Of a DNA stretch of 10,854 nucleotides, positions 3,613 to 7,796 are shown in pieces. The stretch is from Candidatus Sulfopaludibacter sp. SbA3 (GTDB lineage Bacteria; Acidobacteriota; Terriglobia; 20CM-2-55-15), in NCBI GenBank assembly GCA_945861845.1, contig CAMAWS010000061.1, positions 1-10,854 on the forward strand, read 5' to 3'. The notes beneath the pieces are model-generated. The model saw nothing but the letters and a program-made list of their open reading frames with translations. It did not search any database and had not been told where the DNA came from. The position numbers were made by a program, and so were the translations under genes. How positions within the stretch are numbered: the first letter of the stretch is position 1; each line of letters opens with the position of its first letter.

Positions 3613-4836
3613 TCAACCCGCGGCAAAACGGTATCCTTTGGGAATGACGACGATGCCGCGGTCGGAAACCGTGAAGCGTTCCGCATCGCGCGCCAGGTCA
3701 AAACCGATCCTTTCGCCCGGGGGAATCGACACGTGTTTGTCGACGATACAGCGCTGCAGCTGTGCTCCTTCCCCGACGGTGACATCCTCGAAGAGGAGCG
3801 AATTCTCTACCACAGCCCCGTCTTCCACTCGAACGTTCGGGAACAGTATGGCGTGACGCAGCGTTCCCCCGACGATCAGCGTGCCCGAAGCGAGCATGCA
3901 GTTGACGATTTCCGCCTCGCGTCCTGACCTGCCGGGAACGGTACGAGCCGGAGGATGTTGCCCCTCATAGGTTCGGATCGGCCAGTCCCCCTGGTAGAGG
4001 TCAATCGCAGGCAGGGGATGCAGCAGATCCATGTTCGCTTCGTAATACGCATCGATGGTTCCCACATCCCGCCAATAACGGTCGGCCGTGACCCGTCCGC
4101 TCTCGCCACCAAAACGATATGCGTTCACGCGGTGCGTGCCCACCATCGAGGGGAGAATATCCTTGCCGAAGTCGTGCGTGGAATCGCTGCCGTGATCCTG
4201 GTGAAGGAGGTCCACCAAACGATCCATCGAGAACACATACACGCCCATGGATGCGAGCGCGTGGCCGGAATCGCCCGGAATGCTCTGCGGGTTTTCGGGC
4301 TTCTCCTGAAAGGAAACGATCTGGTCATCCTCATTCACCGTCATGGCACCGAAGGAACTTGCTTCTTCGAGCCCGACCGTAAGACAGGCGATGGTTAACG
4401 CGGCTCCGGAATCGCGGTGGCGCTGAAGCATCGCGTCATAGTCCATTCGGTAGACGTGATCTCCCGAGAGAATCAGCGCGTATTCGGCACCGCTCCGCTC
4501 CAGCAGGTACAGGTTCTGGTAGATTGCGTCCGCGGTGCCGCTGTACCACGATTCTCCGGTCCGCATCTGCGGAGGCACCGGCGTGATGTACTCTCCAAGT
4601 TCGGAGTTGTAGATGGACCACCCGTCACGCAGGTGCTTTTGCAGCAAATGGGACTTGTACTGCGTGAGCACGAGAACGCGGCGCAGCCCGGAATGCAGGC
4701 AGTTGCTGAGCGTGAAGTCGATGATGCGGTACCGCCCCCCGAAAGGCACGGCCGGCTTGGCCCTTTCGGCAGTCAGTGGATGCAGGCGCGAACCGATTCC
4801 GCCCGCGAGTATGATGCTGATTGTCTTCTCGCGCAT
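3613..4836 (-). CDS. glgC: Glucose-1-phosphate adenylyltransferase (ADP-glucose pyrophosphorylase)
   Basis: Makes ADP-glucose and pyrophosphate from ATP and glucose-1-phosphate, the committed step of bacterial glycogen synthesis, in the cytoplasm. At 407 residues it is close to the usual GlgC length. The N-terminal nucleotidyltransferase domain has AGGIGSRLHPLT (11-22), KPAVPFGG (27-34), SGDHVYRMDY (124-133, with the Asp expected to bind metal), FQEKP (176-180, with the Lys that contacts glucose-1-phosphate in the family) and YWRDVGT (254-260). Residues ~305-370 look like the left-handed beta-helix domain. Start: a TTG at 4848 is in frame, but the ATG at 4836 gives the typical MREKTISIILAGG beginning and is preferred; the Shine-Dalgarno is poor for both. 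It is divergent from the GAF-ANTAR regulator. No other glycogen genes are in view. Its allosteric effector cannot be read from the sequence. Confidence 0.95.
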   Translation of the reverse strand: MREKTISIILAGGIGSRLHPLTAERAKPAVPFGGRYRIIDFTLSNCLHSGLRRVLVLTQYKSHLLQKHLRDGWSIYNSELGEYITPVPPQMRTGESWYSGTADAIYQNLYLLERSGAEYALILSGDHVYRMDYDAMLQRHRDSGAALTIACLTVGLEEASSFGAMTVNEDDQIVSFQEKPENPQSIPGDSGHALASMGVYVFSMDRLVDLLHQDHGSDSTHDFGKDILPSMVGTHRVNAYRFGGESGRVTADRYWRDVGTIDAYYEANMDLLHPLPAIDLYQGDWPIRTYEGQHPPARTVPGRSGREAEIVNCMLASGTLIVGGTLRHAILFPNVRVEDGAVVENSLLFEDVTVGEGAQLQRCIVDKHVSIPPGERIGFDLARDAERFTVSDRGIVVIPKGYRFAAG

Positions 4837-6160
4837 GAGGATCTTCAAACAACAAACTGAAGATATAACATCCAGGCTAAACGGTCAGGCCTATAATAAG
4901 TTGTTTTTGGAGGAAGCCCTGGCACGCAGCAATTCCATCGATACGATAAGGCAGACACTGGACCTGGCAGGAAAAGAACTGCAGGTTCTGCAGAAGATCA
5001 GCCAGACGATCAGTTGCAGCCTGGATCTTGATGTCATCCTTGGCCAGATTATCGACCTTGTCGTTGAAGTCACTCACGGTGACTCCTGCCTGATCTATCT
5101 GCTGGATGAGACCGAAGAGAATCTTTTCCTGAGAGCTTCCATGACACCCCATCCACGCCTGATCGGACAGATTTCCTTAAAAGTTGGAGAGGGTATTACG
5201 GGGTGGGTGGCCCGGGAGGCCGAACCGGTTGCCATTGCGCGGCACGCGAGCAAGGACAGCCGTTCAAAAATCTTTCACAACCTGCCCGAAGACAAGTACG
5301 AAGCCTTCCTGTCTGTTCCGATCGTGGTTCCTACCGATAGAGTCGTCGGCGTGATCAACGTTCAACACCGCAAGCCCCGCCGCCATACCGTTGCCGAGCA
5401 GACGCTGCTGACGATCATCGGCCATCAGGTTGGAGGCGCGATCGAGAACGCGAGACTGTATGAGGAGACCAAGCGGCAGGCCGAGCGCCTGCTTGCGCTG
5501 GCACAGGTGGGGCAGATCATCGGGTCGGGCAGGTACCTGGAGGAGATGCTCCAGTTGATTGTGAATCTGATCAGCGAGACCATGCAGGCAAAAGTCTGTT
5601 CGATCATGCTGGTGGACAGGAAACGCAATGAACTTGTTCTCAAGGCTGCCAAGTGTACGAGCAAGGAGTATCTGCAGCGTCCGAGTCTCTCCGTCTCAAA
5701 AAGCCTGATCGGCCGCGTCGTGAAGGAAAGAACGCCCCTCATTGTTCGCGATGTCATGAAGGAACCCGGATATCAAAATGCGGACCTTGCCAAGAAGGAA
5801 GGCGTGAAGTCGCTGGTTTCCGTTCCGATGATCGTGAAAGACGACGCAATCGGTGTAATCAACGTCTACTCATCGGAAGAGCGCGTCTTTTCGCAAGAGG
5901 ACATTCGAACGCTCTGTACTGTGGCAGACCAGGCCGCGCTCGCGATTGAGAACACTAAGCTTGCCATGGAAGCCCAGGAAAGCCAGGAAGCCCTTCAAAC
6001 CCGCAAGCTCGTCGACCGCGCCAAGAGCATCCTTGAAAAGCAGGGGGGCCTGAAAGAGGAAGAGGCCTACCGGCGCCTTCAGCAGCAGAGCATGCGGACC
6101 CGCCGGTCCATGAGGGAGATTGCAGAGGCGGTCATACTTTCCAGCGAAATCCAGGGATAA
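4835..6160 (+). CDS. GAF-GAF-ANTAR sensor / RNA-binding antitermination regulator
   Basis: A cytoplasmic one-component regulator, 441 residues from the ATG at 4835. Two GAF domains (about 65-205 and 235-375) share repeated features: GEGITGWVARE with LSVPIVV..VGVINV in the first, and SLIGRVVKER with VSVPMIV..IGVINV in the second. The last ~55 residues, KLVDRAKSILEKQGGLKEEE onward through AYRRLQQQSM and the end of the helix bundle, match ANTAR, the RNA-binding antiterminator domain known from AmiR, NasR and EutV. GAF domains usually bind small ligands; the ligand here is unknown. No histidine kinase or receiver domain is present, so sensing is probably direct. The start is uncertain: the ATG at 4835 has no Shine-Dalgarno and overlaps the glgC start codon on the other strand, while TTG 4901, TTG 4907 and CTG 4919 lie near a TATAAT/GGAGGA pair. 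It converges on amt, whose leader carries a matching ANTAR-type RNA target. Confidence 0.9.
   Translation: MRIFKQQTEDITSRLNGQAYNKLFLEEALARSNSIDTIRQTLDLAGKELQVLQKISQTISCSLDLDVILGQIIDLVVEVTHGDSCLIYLLDETEENLFLRASMTPHPRLIGQISLKVGEGITGWVAREAEPVAIARHASKDSRSKIFHNLPEDKYEAFLSVPIVVPTDRVVGVINVQHRKPRRHTVAEQTLLTIIGHQVGGAIENARLYEETKRQAERLLALAQVGQIIGSGRYLEEMLQLIVNLISETMQAKVCSIMLVDRKRNELVLKAAKCTSKEYLQRPSLSVSKSLIGRVVKERTPLIVRDVMKEPGYQNADLAKKEGVKSLVSVPMIVKDDAIGVINVYSSEERVFSQEDIRTLCTVADQAALAIENTKLAMEAQESQEALQTRKLVDRAKSILEKQGGLKEEEAYRRLQQQSMRTRRSMREIAEAVILSSEIQG
4837..4918. promoter_or_regulatory. Divergent control region between glgC and the GAF-ANTAR gene
   Basis: A perfect TATAAT lies on the plus strand at 4892-4897 without a recognisable -35. 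GGAGGA follows at 4909-4914. On the minus strand, TATATC preceded by CTGACC at 15 bases is a weak promoter candidate for glgC. If the plus-strand TATAAT is used, the regulator's transcript begins near 4904, downstream of the ATG at 4835. That would require a start at a TTG or CTG around 4907-4921. Low confidence, but the start of the regulator depends on it. Confidence 0.3.
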
Positions 6161-6164
6161 TTCA

Positions 6165-6228
6165 ATTCCGGTGACGTTGATCGAATTGTTCTGAAGCACA
6201 GGAACAATTCGATCAACGTCACCGGAAT
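6165..6228. terminator. Perfect 27-bp inverted repeat between convergent genes
   Basis: The arms at 6165-6191 and 6202-6228 are exact reverse complements with a 10-base loop (TGAAGCACAG). The repeat begins 4 bases after the regulator's stop and 7 bases after the amt stop, so it would end both transcripts. No T-run follows on either strand, so it is not a textbook intrinsic terminator. It may instead block, stabilise or process the 3' ends, or be a binding or recombination site. The arm sequence is unlike the repeats elsewhere in this window. Confidence 0.7.
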
Positions 6229-6235
6229 ACCCGAA

Positions 6236-7537
6236 TTAGTGGCGAGTCTTAGTGCCAGCGTCCGAACCGCTTGGTTTTACGCTCATTCCCGAAGTCTCGA
6301 AATCGCCGAGTCCAAACTCGTACGCGGACTCGCTATGCTGGCTCAGGTCGAGACCAAGCATTTCGTCCTCGGGTGTCAGGCGCAGGCCGAAGATGGCTTT
6401 CACAATCATCAGAATGACCAGTGTTCCGATTCCCGCGAAAGCGATCGTTGCAAGAACGGCAACAAGCTGTGTAACCACAAGTCCCGGGTTGCCGAAGAAC
6501 AGGCCATCGTTTCCAGCAGGATTAATTGCTTTGGAAGCGAACAATCCGGTGGCCAGGGCTCCCCAGACGCCGCCCACGAAGTGAACGCCGACAACGTCGA
6601 GCGAATCGTCATAGCCCAGCTTCGCCTTTACGTTGCATGCCGCATAACAGATCACTCCGGCAACCGCCCCAATTACCATTGCGGACATCGGCCCGACGAA
6701 TCCCGATCCCGGAGTTACCGCTACGAGGCCGGCGACCGCGCCGCTGGCTGCGCCGAGCATGGTTGGTTTTCCTCGGGAGACCCATTCCGCCAGGGACCAG
6801 AGCAACGCCGCCGCCGCGGCGGCCGTATTTGTGGCAAGGAATGCCGAAGCCGCCAGGCCATTTGCGCCCAGGGCGGAACCGGCGTTGAATCCGAACCAGC
6901 CGACCCACAGCAGCGAGGCGCCCAGAACAGTAAACGGAAGGTTATGTGGAATTATGGGAACCCTTCCATAATCCACGCGCCTTCCCATGACGAGCGCGCA
7001 GACCAACGCCGAGGCTCCGGAACTGATATGAACGACCGTCCCGCCCGCAAAGTCCAGGGCGCCCGTGTTTCTGATCCATCCGCCGACGCCCCAGACCCAG
7101 TGACACAGCGGGTCATATATCAGAGTCGCCCAGAGAAGCGTGAACAGGAGGAAACCGCTGAATTTCATGCGTTCCGCGAAGGCGCCGGTGATGAGCGCGG
7201 GGGTGATGATCGCGAAAGTGAGCTGGAAGATGGCAAATGCCTGGTGAGGAATCGTGGCTGCATAGTCGGCATTTGGCGTTTGCCCGACCTGGTTGAAGCC
7301 AATCCAGTCCAGGCTGCCGATCAGGCCGTTGATGTCGGGACCGAAGGCCAGGGTATAACCAATCACGATCCACTGGATGCTGATCAGGGCCGTGATTATG
7401 AAGCTCTGTAATACGGTTCCCAGAACGTTCTTGCCGCGGACCATGCCACCGTAGAAAAAAGCCAGTCCGGGAATTGTCATCATCAGAACGAGCGCCGAGG
7501 AAATGAGCACCCATCCTGTATCGCCAGTGTCGATCAT
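6236..7537 (-). CDS. amt: Ammonium transporter, Amt family
   Basis: An inner-membrane channel for ammonium uptake. It has 433 residues and about 11 membrane helices, as usual for Amt proteins. Family landmarks are PGLAFFYGGMVR (23-34), AFAERMKFSGFLLF (119-132), YDPLCHWVWG (141-150) with Asp142 and the first pore His146, DFAGGTVVHISSG (162-174), WFGFNAGSALGANG (214-227), and GVHFVGGVWG (317-326) with the second pore His319. The tail LGLDLSQHSESAYEF (394-408) is the conserved cytoplasmic end that interacts with PII proteins in relatives, followed by about 25 extra residues. Start: the frame is open upstream to 7651, but AAGGAG sits 7 bases before the ATG at 7537, which also gives the normal N-terminus. 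No glnK/PII gene is adjacent in this window, unlike the common glnK-amtB pair. The leader suggests control by an ANTAR protein. Confidence 0.96.
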   Translation of the reverse strand: MIDTGDTGWVLISSALVLMMTIPGLAFFYGGMVRGKNVLGTVLQSFIITALISIQWIVIGYTLAFGPDINGLIGSLDWIGFNQVGQTPNADYAATIPHQAFAIFQLTFAIITPALITGAFAERMKFSGFLLFTLLWATLIYDPLCHWVWGVGGWIRNTGALDFAGGTVVHISSGASALVCALVMGRRVDYGRVPIIPHNLPFTVLGASLLWVGWFGFNAGSALGANGLAASAFLATNTAAAAAALLWSLAEWVSRGKPTMLGAASGAVAGLVAVTPGSGFVGPMSAMVIGAVAGVICYAACNVKAKLGYDDSLDVVGVHFVGGVWGALATGLFASKAINPAGNDGLFFGNPGLVVTQLVAVLATIAFAGIGTLVILMIVKAIFGLRLTPEDEMLGLDLSQHSESAYEFGLGDFETSGMSVKPSGSDAGTKTRH

Positions 7538-7570: not shown

Positions 7571-7589
7571 AAAAACGCCCAACAGGGCG
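7571..7589 (-). terminator. Terminator-like hairpin in the amt leader
   Basis: On the minus strand CGCCC-TGTT-GGGCG is followed at once by TTTTT and then GTGTTTT. A 5-bp all-GC stem with a U-run, placed upstream of the gene it precedes, is an attenuator-type arrangement. The stem is short but can be extended or replaced by longer pairings with the second ANTAR hairpin. Confidence 0.5.
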
Positions 7590-7604
7590 GTATTTCGCTC
7601 CAGG

Positions 7605-7660
7605 TCTGGACGTCTTTGTCTCAGATTCAAACTAATTTGGATTTGGTACACCGTTGTACC
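7605..7660 (-). ncRNA. Two-hairpin ANTAR-type RNA target in the amt 5' leader
   Basis: On the minus strand, hairpin 1 (7660-7645) is GGTAC-AACGGT-GTACC, a perfect 5-bp stem with a six-base loop. After 19 bases, hairpin 2 (7625-7605) has a TCTG-A-GAC / GTC-CAGA stem, 7 bp with one bulged A, and the six-base loop AAAGAC. Both loops have A at position 1 and G at position 4, the known signature of RNAs bound by ANTAR antiterminators (paired hexaloop hairpins before a terminator). An ANTAR protein is encoded at 4835-6160. The structure was found by eye with no folding calculation. Confidence 0.72.
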
Positions 7661-7666
7661 GCGGCT

Positions 7667-7695
7667 ATTTTCAGAATTCGGTCTGGAAACGTCAA
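7667..7695 (-). promoter_or_regulatory. Sigma70-type promoter candidate for amt
   Basis: On the minus strand TTGACG (7695-7690) and GAAAAT (7672-7667) are separated by exactly 17 bases; they match the -35 and -10 consensus at 5 of 6 and 4 of 6 positions. Transcription would start near 7660, right at the base of the first ANTAR hairpin, leaving a leader of about 120 bases. No sigma54 (-24/-12) promoter was recognised. Confidence 0.5.
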
Positions 7696-7704
7696 GCGAA
7701 ACCT

Positions 7705-7796
7705 TCTGTTTCTTAATGGCTGCGCCCTATCGGGCTGGCATTCGCATCCGTCTGTTTGTTGATGGCTGCGCCCTATCGGGCTAGCATTCGCATCCG
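7705..7796. repeat. Two tandem 46-bp direct repeats
   Basis: Units 7705-7750 and 7751-7796 abut with no spacer and match at 43 of 46 positions. Each holds TGC-GCCC-TATC-GGGC-nn-GCA, a 7-bp stem with a two-base bulge, and ends in ATTCGCATCCG. The second copy ends 3 bases before the ABC transporter's first ATG, so the array occupies its upstream or leader region and lies upstream of the amt promoter on the other strand. The function is unknown; it could be a regulator-binding array, a transcribed hairpin pair or the remnant of a repeat family. Confidence 0.75.

Follow-up and report, generated by a model that had tools for sequence, protein, structure and literature searches.

A probable ANTAR-type antitermination leader upstream of an ammonium transporter gene of Candidatus Sulfopaludibacter, and its relatives within one bacterial family

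The closest described relatives of the leader analysed here are the ANTAR systems EutV/eut, NasR/nasF and AmiR/amiE. In the portions of PMC3369931 and PMC8934654 on which this account draws, these systems have two hairpins (here P1 and P2) with hexanucleotide loops that are closed by a C-G pair and have A as their first and G as their fourth base (A1 and G4). An intrinsic terminator shares sequence with P2, an ANTAR protein is encoded in the genome, and nitrogen genes lie downstream. G4 is the only base contacted by EutV (PMC8934654). The linkers of the eut elements measure 5-12 nt; EutV induction falls drastically at a linker of 14 nt (PMC3369931) and is abolished when 20 nt are added (PMC8934654). 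A survey of actinobacterial ANTAR RNAs, according to the part of PMC8164766 used here, accepts linkers of 2-25 nt.

ANTAR RNAs have already been placed upstream of genes for ammonium transporters, P-II, and glutamate and glutamine synthases (PMC3369931), so the novelty that a preliminary description of our locus had seen in an ANTAR RNA on an ammonium transporter gene had been anticipated in print. For instance, the nitrogen regulon predicted in Desulfotomaculum acetoxidans (PMC3369931) and that of NitR, the ANTAR regulator of the GS/GOGAT genes of Clostridium saccharobutylicum (cited in PMC6316151), have several leaders per genome, with ammonium transporter, P-II and glutamine or glutamate synthase genes among their targets. 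Proteins that combine GAF and ANTAR domains are listed within a subclass of one-component regulators (PMC7496416, in the part used here), and PMC3369931 stated in 2012 that none of them had yet been characterised. Literature searches on GAF-ANTAR proteins, on ANTAR with Acidobacteria and on ANTAR with ammonium transporters returned, among the matches listed and leaving the supplementary tables of PMC3369931 aside, no acidobacterial ANTAR regulon.

The locus described below shares with the EutV, NasR and AmiR systems the two hairpins with their loop features, a predicted overlap of P2 with a terminator, an encoded ANTAR protein and nitrogen genes downstream. It differs from them, as they are presented in these sources, in that its sensor is a tandem GAF and not a receiver or NIT domain, and in the 25-nt linker of the leader. 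It resembles the Desulfotomaculum and NitR regulons in the number of leaders and in the kind of target genes, but the RNA consensus (P1 CAC..GUG, P2 GAC..GUC) was found here only in one family of bacteria, and the regulator is again of the tandem-GAF type.

The window, that is, the whole stretch of DNA analysed, comprises 10,854 nucleotides of contig CAMAWS010000061.1 of Candidatus Sulfopaludibacter sp. SbA3; its order is represented here by 11 genomes, all of one family. The ammonium transporter gene amt occupies positions 6236-7537 of the minus strand and encodes 433 amino acids (PF00909, E 6.5e-129; TIGR00836 over its cut-off). On the same strand, a sigma-70-like promoter is found at 7667-7695, composed of TTGACG (7695-7690), a 17-nt spacer and GAAAAT (7672-7667), from which a start would be expected near 7660. 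It is followed by P1 (7645-7660), in which the arms GGTAC (7660-7656) and GTACC (7649-7645) enclose the loop AACGGT (7655-7650), AACGGU in the RNA, over a C-G closing pair. P2 (7605-7625; predicted -6.3 kcal/mol) has a core formed by GAC (7620-7618) and GTC (7611-7609), with the loop AAAGAC (7617-7612) and again a C-G closing pair, and an outer stem TCTG (7625-7622)/CAGA (7608-7605) from which A7621 is bulged. Thus, both hairpins have stems of at least 3 bp and hexanucleotide loops with A1 and G4. Between them lies a weak hairpin, CAAA-UUAG-UUUG (7628-7639), whose loop is not of the A1/G4 type; it is present in the minimum free energy fold of the leader and absent from the folds of truncated transcripts. 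The linker measures 25 nt from a 4-bp P1 arm to GAC and 19 nt between the full stems, values that fall outside the range of eut elements and inside that of the actinobacterial survey. A U-run follows P2 at a distance of 33 nt, as in the relatives described below, and 3' of it come a Shine-Dalgarno-like GGAAGGAG and the ATG of amt.

The two hairpins, whose presence on the amt-sense strand had been claimed in the preliminary description, are beyond chance. Pairs of C-G-closed A1/G4 hairpins whose stems have at least 5 and at least 3 bp were obtained in 2 of 20,000 dinucleotide shuffles of positions 7665-7540, and in 17 of 20,000 when at least 3 bp were asked of both stems. The whole window, both strands counted, contains two such pairs at the looser setting and only the one of the amt leader at the stricter one. 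The 126-nt leader also folds better than 200 of 200 shuffles (z -3.16). The promoter candidate noted earlier is present too, although taken alone it is at chance level, as one promoter-like site was counted in the whole window against 2.9 in shuffles. A search of Rfam 15 returned no relevant family at E<=10; its three matches are to eukaryotic RNA types and lie far below the gathering scores. One of them, to a miRNA family at 6166-6227, was discarded as spurious.

Since only two amt leaders were available for comparison, covariation was counted on other members of the putative regulon. All 11 family genomes were searched with a loose pattern for P2 and a U-run, which gave 358 matches, against 220 for the reversed pattern (overlaps counted in both), most of them therefore due to chance; among the matches listed, terminator-like candidates were picked by eye. 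The stretches fetched contain 46 places with P2 plus U-run, and the 25 of these with a clear P1 nearby were taken as training set. To be chosen, an element had to have GAC/GUC and G4 in its P2, a T5 run downstream, and a P1 of 3 pairs or more with C-G closing and G4; A1 was not demanded. The resulting covariance model, R1, has 35 positions and 7 pairs and was trained without the window and without the amt leader of genome G008. The Rfam search, proposed earlier as a check, was silent. This family-built model ranks the amt leader first in the window (7659-7607, minus strand, 18.4 bits, E 0.0032; runner-up 12.6 bits). In a genome-wide search the same site taken alone has an E of 0.99 and is not significant, which we put down to its long linker.

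R1 matches are concentrated in the family. The family has 44 elements at E<=0.05 (25 of them the training set). In a scan of the class with stricter filters, 24 of 299 genomes have a match at this E, among them all 11 of the family. Outside the family, 13 of 288 genomes have one match each, compared with about 14 expected by chance. ANTAR domains are encoded in 164 of the 299 genomes, so many lineages possess ANTAR proteins without the R1 consensus. This family context, with elements in 11 of 11 genomes and chance level outside, settles the reading of the window leader, which is very likely an ANTAR-type leader RNA. The P2 loops of the 44 elements carry G at position 4 in 43 cases (G4 having been imposed on the 25 training elements) and A at position 1 in only 20, unlike those of the EutV, NasR and AmiR systems as described in the sources cited; these proportions fit G4 as the sole contacted base (PMC8934654).

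Overlap of P2 with a terminator is also common in the family: the 3' arm of P2 pairs beside the U-run in 39 of the 44 elements, that is, in 25 of 25 training elements, for which the U-run was part of the selection, and in 14 of the 19 others, at least 5 of which had already been seen with the pattern. None of four fetched matches from outside the family (of the 13) shows it. When the folding of 45 overlapping elements was predicted with the P2 arm available, the stem touched the U-run in 43; with the arm hidden, the stem ended at least 2 nt from the U-run in 44. In G004:C175 the P2 loop measures 7 nt, so that the energy computed for it with P2 forced has no meaning.

The single element whose stem still touches the U-run when the arm is hidden is that of the window, where two terminator-like structures are predicted. 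The longer one (7571-7617, minus strand) is formed by AAAGACGUCCAG (7617-7606), which comprises the P2 loop together with the 3' arm of that hairpin, and UUGGGCGUUUUU (7582-7571); it is the minimum free energy fold of the transcript ending at 7571, and its ACGUCCA...UGGGCGUUUUU pairing recurs in several relatives. P2 and this terminator are thus predicted to be mutually exclusive. The shorter one (7571-7589, predicted -8.9 kcal/mol) is a local hairpin, CGCCC-UGUU-GGGCG (7589-7576), followed by U5 (7575-7571). This is the GC stem with U-run of the preliminary description; it exists, but the pairing that competes with P2 is the longer one. The short hairpin is compatible with P2 and remains beside the U-run while P2 is held, so the window copy perhaps switches incompletely and may be leaky or partly uncoupled. 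Over the whole window, 14 terminator-like sites were counted against 11.5 in shuffles.

The short hairpin could also mean that the element is decaying, terminating transcription regardless of P2 and leaving amt under constant attenuation rather than under an ANTAR protein. The singular behaviour of the window among the 45 elements and its long linker agree with such a decay, as do two findings in other genomes: G007, of the same genus, has neither amt nor its leader at this place, and in G005 the leader of a truncated amt relative is degenerate. However, the window resembles the relatives in both hairpins and their loops, in its promoter spacing and in how far the U-run lies from P2, the P2-overlapping terminator is the structure of lowest energy, and a stem of five pairs followed by U5-G-U-G would be a weak terminator; decay is therefore an unlikely explanation.

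In the 25 relatives of the training set, 19 cells of the P1 alignment are changed on both sides with pairing kept, a number reached in 0 of 500 shuffles although partly built in by the selection of at least 3 pairs, and position 1 of the loop is A in 22 of 25 without having been selected for; the stems of P2 are invariant and carry no covariation information. P1 might also act as a DNA operator for a repressor, with the hairpins being incidental, since it forms a perfect palindrome with 6-bp arms (GGTACA-N4-TGTACC) at the expected start site beside a promoter-like sequence. This is very improbable, because the variation with pairing, the frequency of A1 and the presence of P2 and an overlapping terminator after P1 all speak against it.

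Coming back to the ANTAR leader, TTGAC with a -10-like hexamer was found upstream of P1 in 33 of 51 elements (all those fetched from the family, with E up to 0.99), compared with 2.1% of mononucleotide-shuffled upstream sequences. The distance from promoter to P1 is mostly 36-47 nt in the family and 36 nt in the window. Transcription therefore probably begins just before P1, and not downstream of 7605, a start that the preliminary description had regarded as fatal to its proposal.

The distribution of the element among amt orthologues is uneven. The orthologue of G008 (71% identity) is preceded by a P1 that follows the same stem and loop rules (GGUAC/GUACC with AACGGC) and by a P2 with GAC/GUC and AACGAA, the two being separated by 51 nt that contain further hairpins; here R1 pairs P1 with a G1/G4 hairpin of the linker and not with the P2 of the terminator. 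In the readable leaders of the orthologues of G006 (69%) and G009 (54%) the motif was not found. The amt of G010 has only 9 nt of upstream sequence, and the G005 relative is the truncated fragment mentioned above. The conservation of the hexaloops in homologous leaders, suggested earlier as a check, is thus seen in G008 and fails in G006 and G009. When 38 amt leaders were scanned for hairpins in a simple way, a C-G-closed A1/G4 pair turned up only in the window and G008, and the same two leaders are the best R1 matches over 31 amt loci. No R1 match was found within 400 nt upstream of amt at 27 loci of the class outside the family, nor at 80 amt loci from many phyla, Acidobacteria included, some of which have little upstream sequence. 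The switch on amt genes of the window type is therefore not fixed in the family, whereas the regulon is present throughout.

The probable trans-acting antiterminator is a GAF-GAF-ANTAR protein encoded on the plus strand at 4835-6160, convergent with amt (its start codon is uncertain, the open frame beginning at 4613). Its ANTAR domain matches PF03861 with E 2e-18 and 66.3 bits, over the curated cut-off of 27.3. The family proteins were compared at the 11 EutV residues named in the part of PMC8934654 used here, with the numbering matched to the present alignment. The four that hold G4 (R142, K149, E160 and Y164) are identical in the 13 aligned of the 14 family ANTAR proteins. In the window protein K143, M172 and R175 are also identical, K147 is replaced by R, and three backbone contacts differ (R168Q, N173R and R177S). 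The bin of the window contains one ANTAR match, that of the window itself, and is 81% complete, so that a second one could be missing. Each of the 11 family genomes has one or two ANTAR matches, 14 in total, of which 13 lie inside homologues of the GAF-GAF-ANTAR protein according to a protein search; the 14th (G005:C891) lies beside a partial one.

In the same-genus G007, only about 60 bp or less separate the ANTAR gene from an ABC transporter gene, whose counterpart in the window lies on the far side of amt; no amt stands between them. Around the ANTAR genes of the 10 family genomes besides that of the window, flanks of at least about 1.5 kb (shorter where a contig ends; G005:C891 was left out) showed no amt, and regulator and amt were seen side by side only in the genome of the window. 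The preliminary description had the ANTAR regulator control amt as a neighbour in cis; leader and protein of the required kinds are both present, but since the adjacency is not conserved, control is presumably exerted in trans over a regulon. It is likely that the GAF-GAF-ANTAR protein of the window acts on amt in trans and that amt belongs to a nitrogen regulon.

The genes behind the elements agree in kind with such a regulon. The first downstream frames of 28 elements were scanned with Pfam (7 without match) and include ammonium transporters, P-II, glutamine synthetase, an amino acid permease and NifA-like sigma-54 activators with GAF domains, one of which scores 500.9 bits against TIGR01817, just under the cut-off of 528.85. 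Genes for amt, P-II, glutamine synthetase and NifA-like proteins that bear elements are spread among the 11 genomes. Further targets are a GAF-phosphorylase, BBP2 porins, CitMHS-type transporters, a circularly permuted ATP-grasp protein and an HlyD-type protein; an ankyrin protein lies downstream of a weak element (E 0.12). In the window's own genome, another P2 with the loop AAAGAC is found at G000:C206, its downstream gene lying beyond the contig edge.

With good confidence, the amt leader can be taken as an ANTAR antitermination element that belongs, with other targets, to a nitrogen regulon present throughout the family and controlled in trans by the GAF-GAF-ANTAR protein. The active protein would bind P1 and then P2; P2 held in this way would block the long terminator, and the polymerase would read into amt, while without the protein transcription would stop near 7571. 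We have counted against this explanation the genome-wide E of 0.99, the long linker, the P2-compatible hairpin, the leaders of G006 and G009 without motif, the degenerate leader of G005, the three substituted backbone contacts and the incompleteness of the bin. The signal might be nitrogen status, in the form of glutamine and/or 2-oxoglutarate, a reasoned guess made because GAF1 is PtsP-like and GAF2 NifA-like. GAF1 matches the GAF of PtsP (NF008283, positions 4-174, E 6.3e-38; solved structure 3ci6, E 4.9e-20) and GAF2 that of NifA (TIGR01817, positions 3-186, E 5.9e-29), both below the full-length cut-offs, as expected for single domains. The PtsP GAF is reported to bind glutamine (PMC4848567) and the NifA GAF of A. 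vinelandii 2-oxoglutarate (PMC8219145), in the parts of these papers used here. A characterised example of this combination of sensors was not found among the matches listed in the literature searches.

More tentatively, the GAF-GAF-ANTAR protein might be a one-component master regulator of nitrogen that senses glutamine through its PtsP-type GAF and 2-oxoglutarate through its NifA-type GAF and antiterminates amt, glnK, glnA and nifA-like genes, filling in this bacterial order the role played elsewhere by NtrBC. NtrC was detected by its NCBIfam cut-off in 0 of 11 family genomes, but also in only 1 of 14 controls, and many NtrC-like proteins score below this cut-off. The results give a GAF-type ANTAR protein its likely regulon, offer a signal hypothesis that is specific and cheap, and suggest that transcription attenuation is the means by which an uncultured, probably acidobacterial lineage controls its nitrogen assimilation. 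Its natural variants, such as the relaxed A1 of P2, the long linkers and the one hairpin independent of P2, would test the model in which only G4 is contacted and the linker is tightly limited.

Several further observations concern individual elements. The second amt of the window's own genome (G000:C188, L075 4469-4567) is preceded by two elements, or by a second P2 and terminator, in series, and the same is seen before other amt genes (L080, L081 and L083). In some leaders of amt or NifA-like genes (L123, L141, L201, L134 and L138) a third hexaloop-like hairpin lies between or before P1 and P2; a subclass with three hairpins was considered and stays a mere lead, as the count of 2 in 46 against 0.67 expected is not convincing. 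Strong elements of 38.9 and 36.4 bits lie at L135 496-675 and L124 448-543. The frame that follows has 60 amino acids (MVLIKVQYDGYNRQFKL...) in G003, and a 32-aa frame in G001 is related to it, so that a small protein under ANTAR control is possible at these elements. In G008, a P2-like hairpin with an overlapping terminator (L086, G008:C95:7833-7879) stands before a second GAF-GAF-ANTAR gene, for which autoregulation is possible.

Two kinds of repeats flank amt in the window. Between the convergent ANTAR and amt genes there is a perfect 26-bp inverted repeat (6166-6227), absent at this place in G007, which is perhaps a two-way terminator. The stretch that separates the ABC transporter gene from the amt promoter holds two near-identical 36-bp direct repeats (7715-7750 and 7761-7796), which together with amt make up the segment missing from G007.
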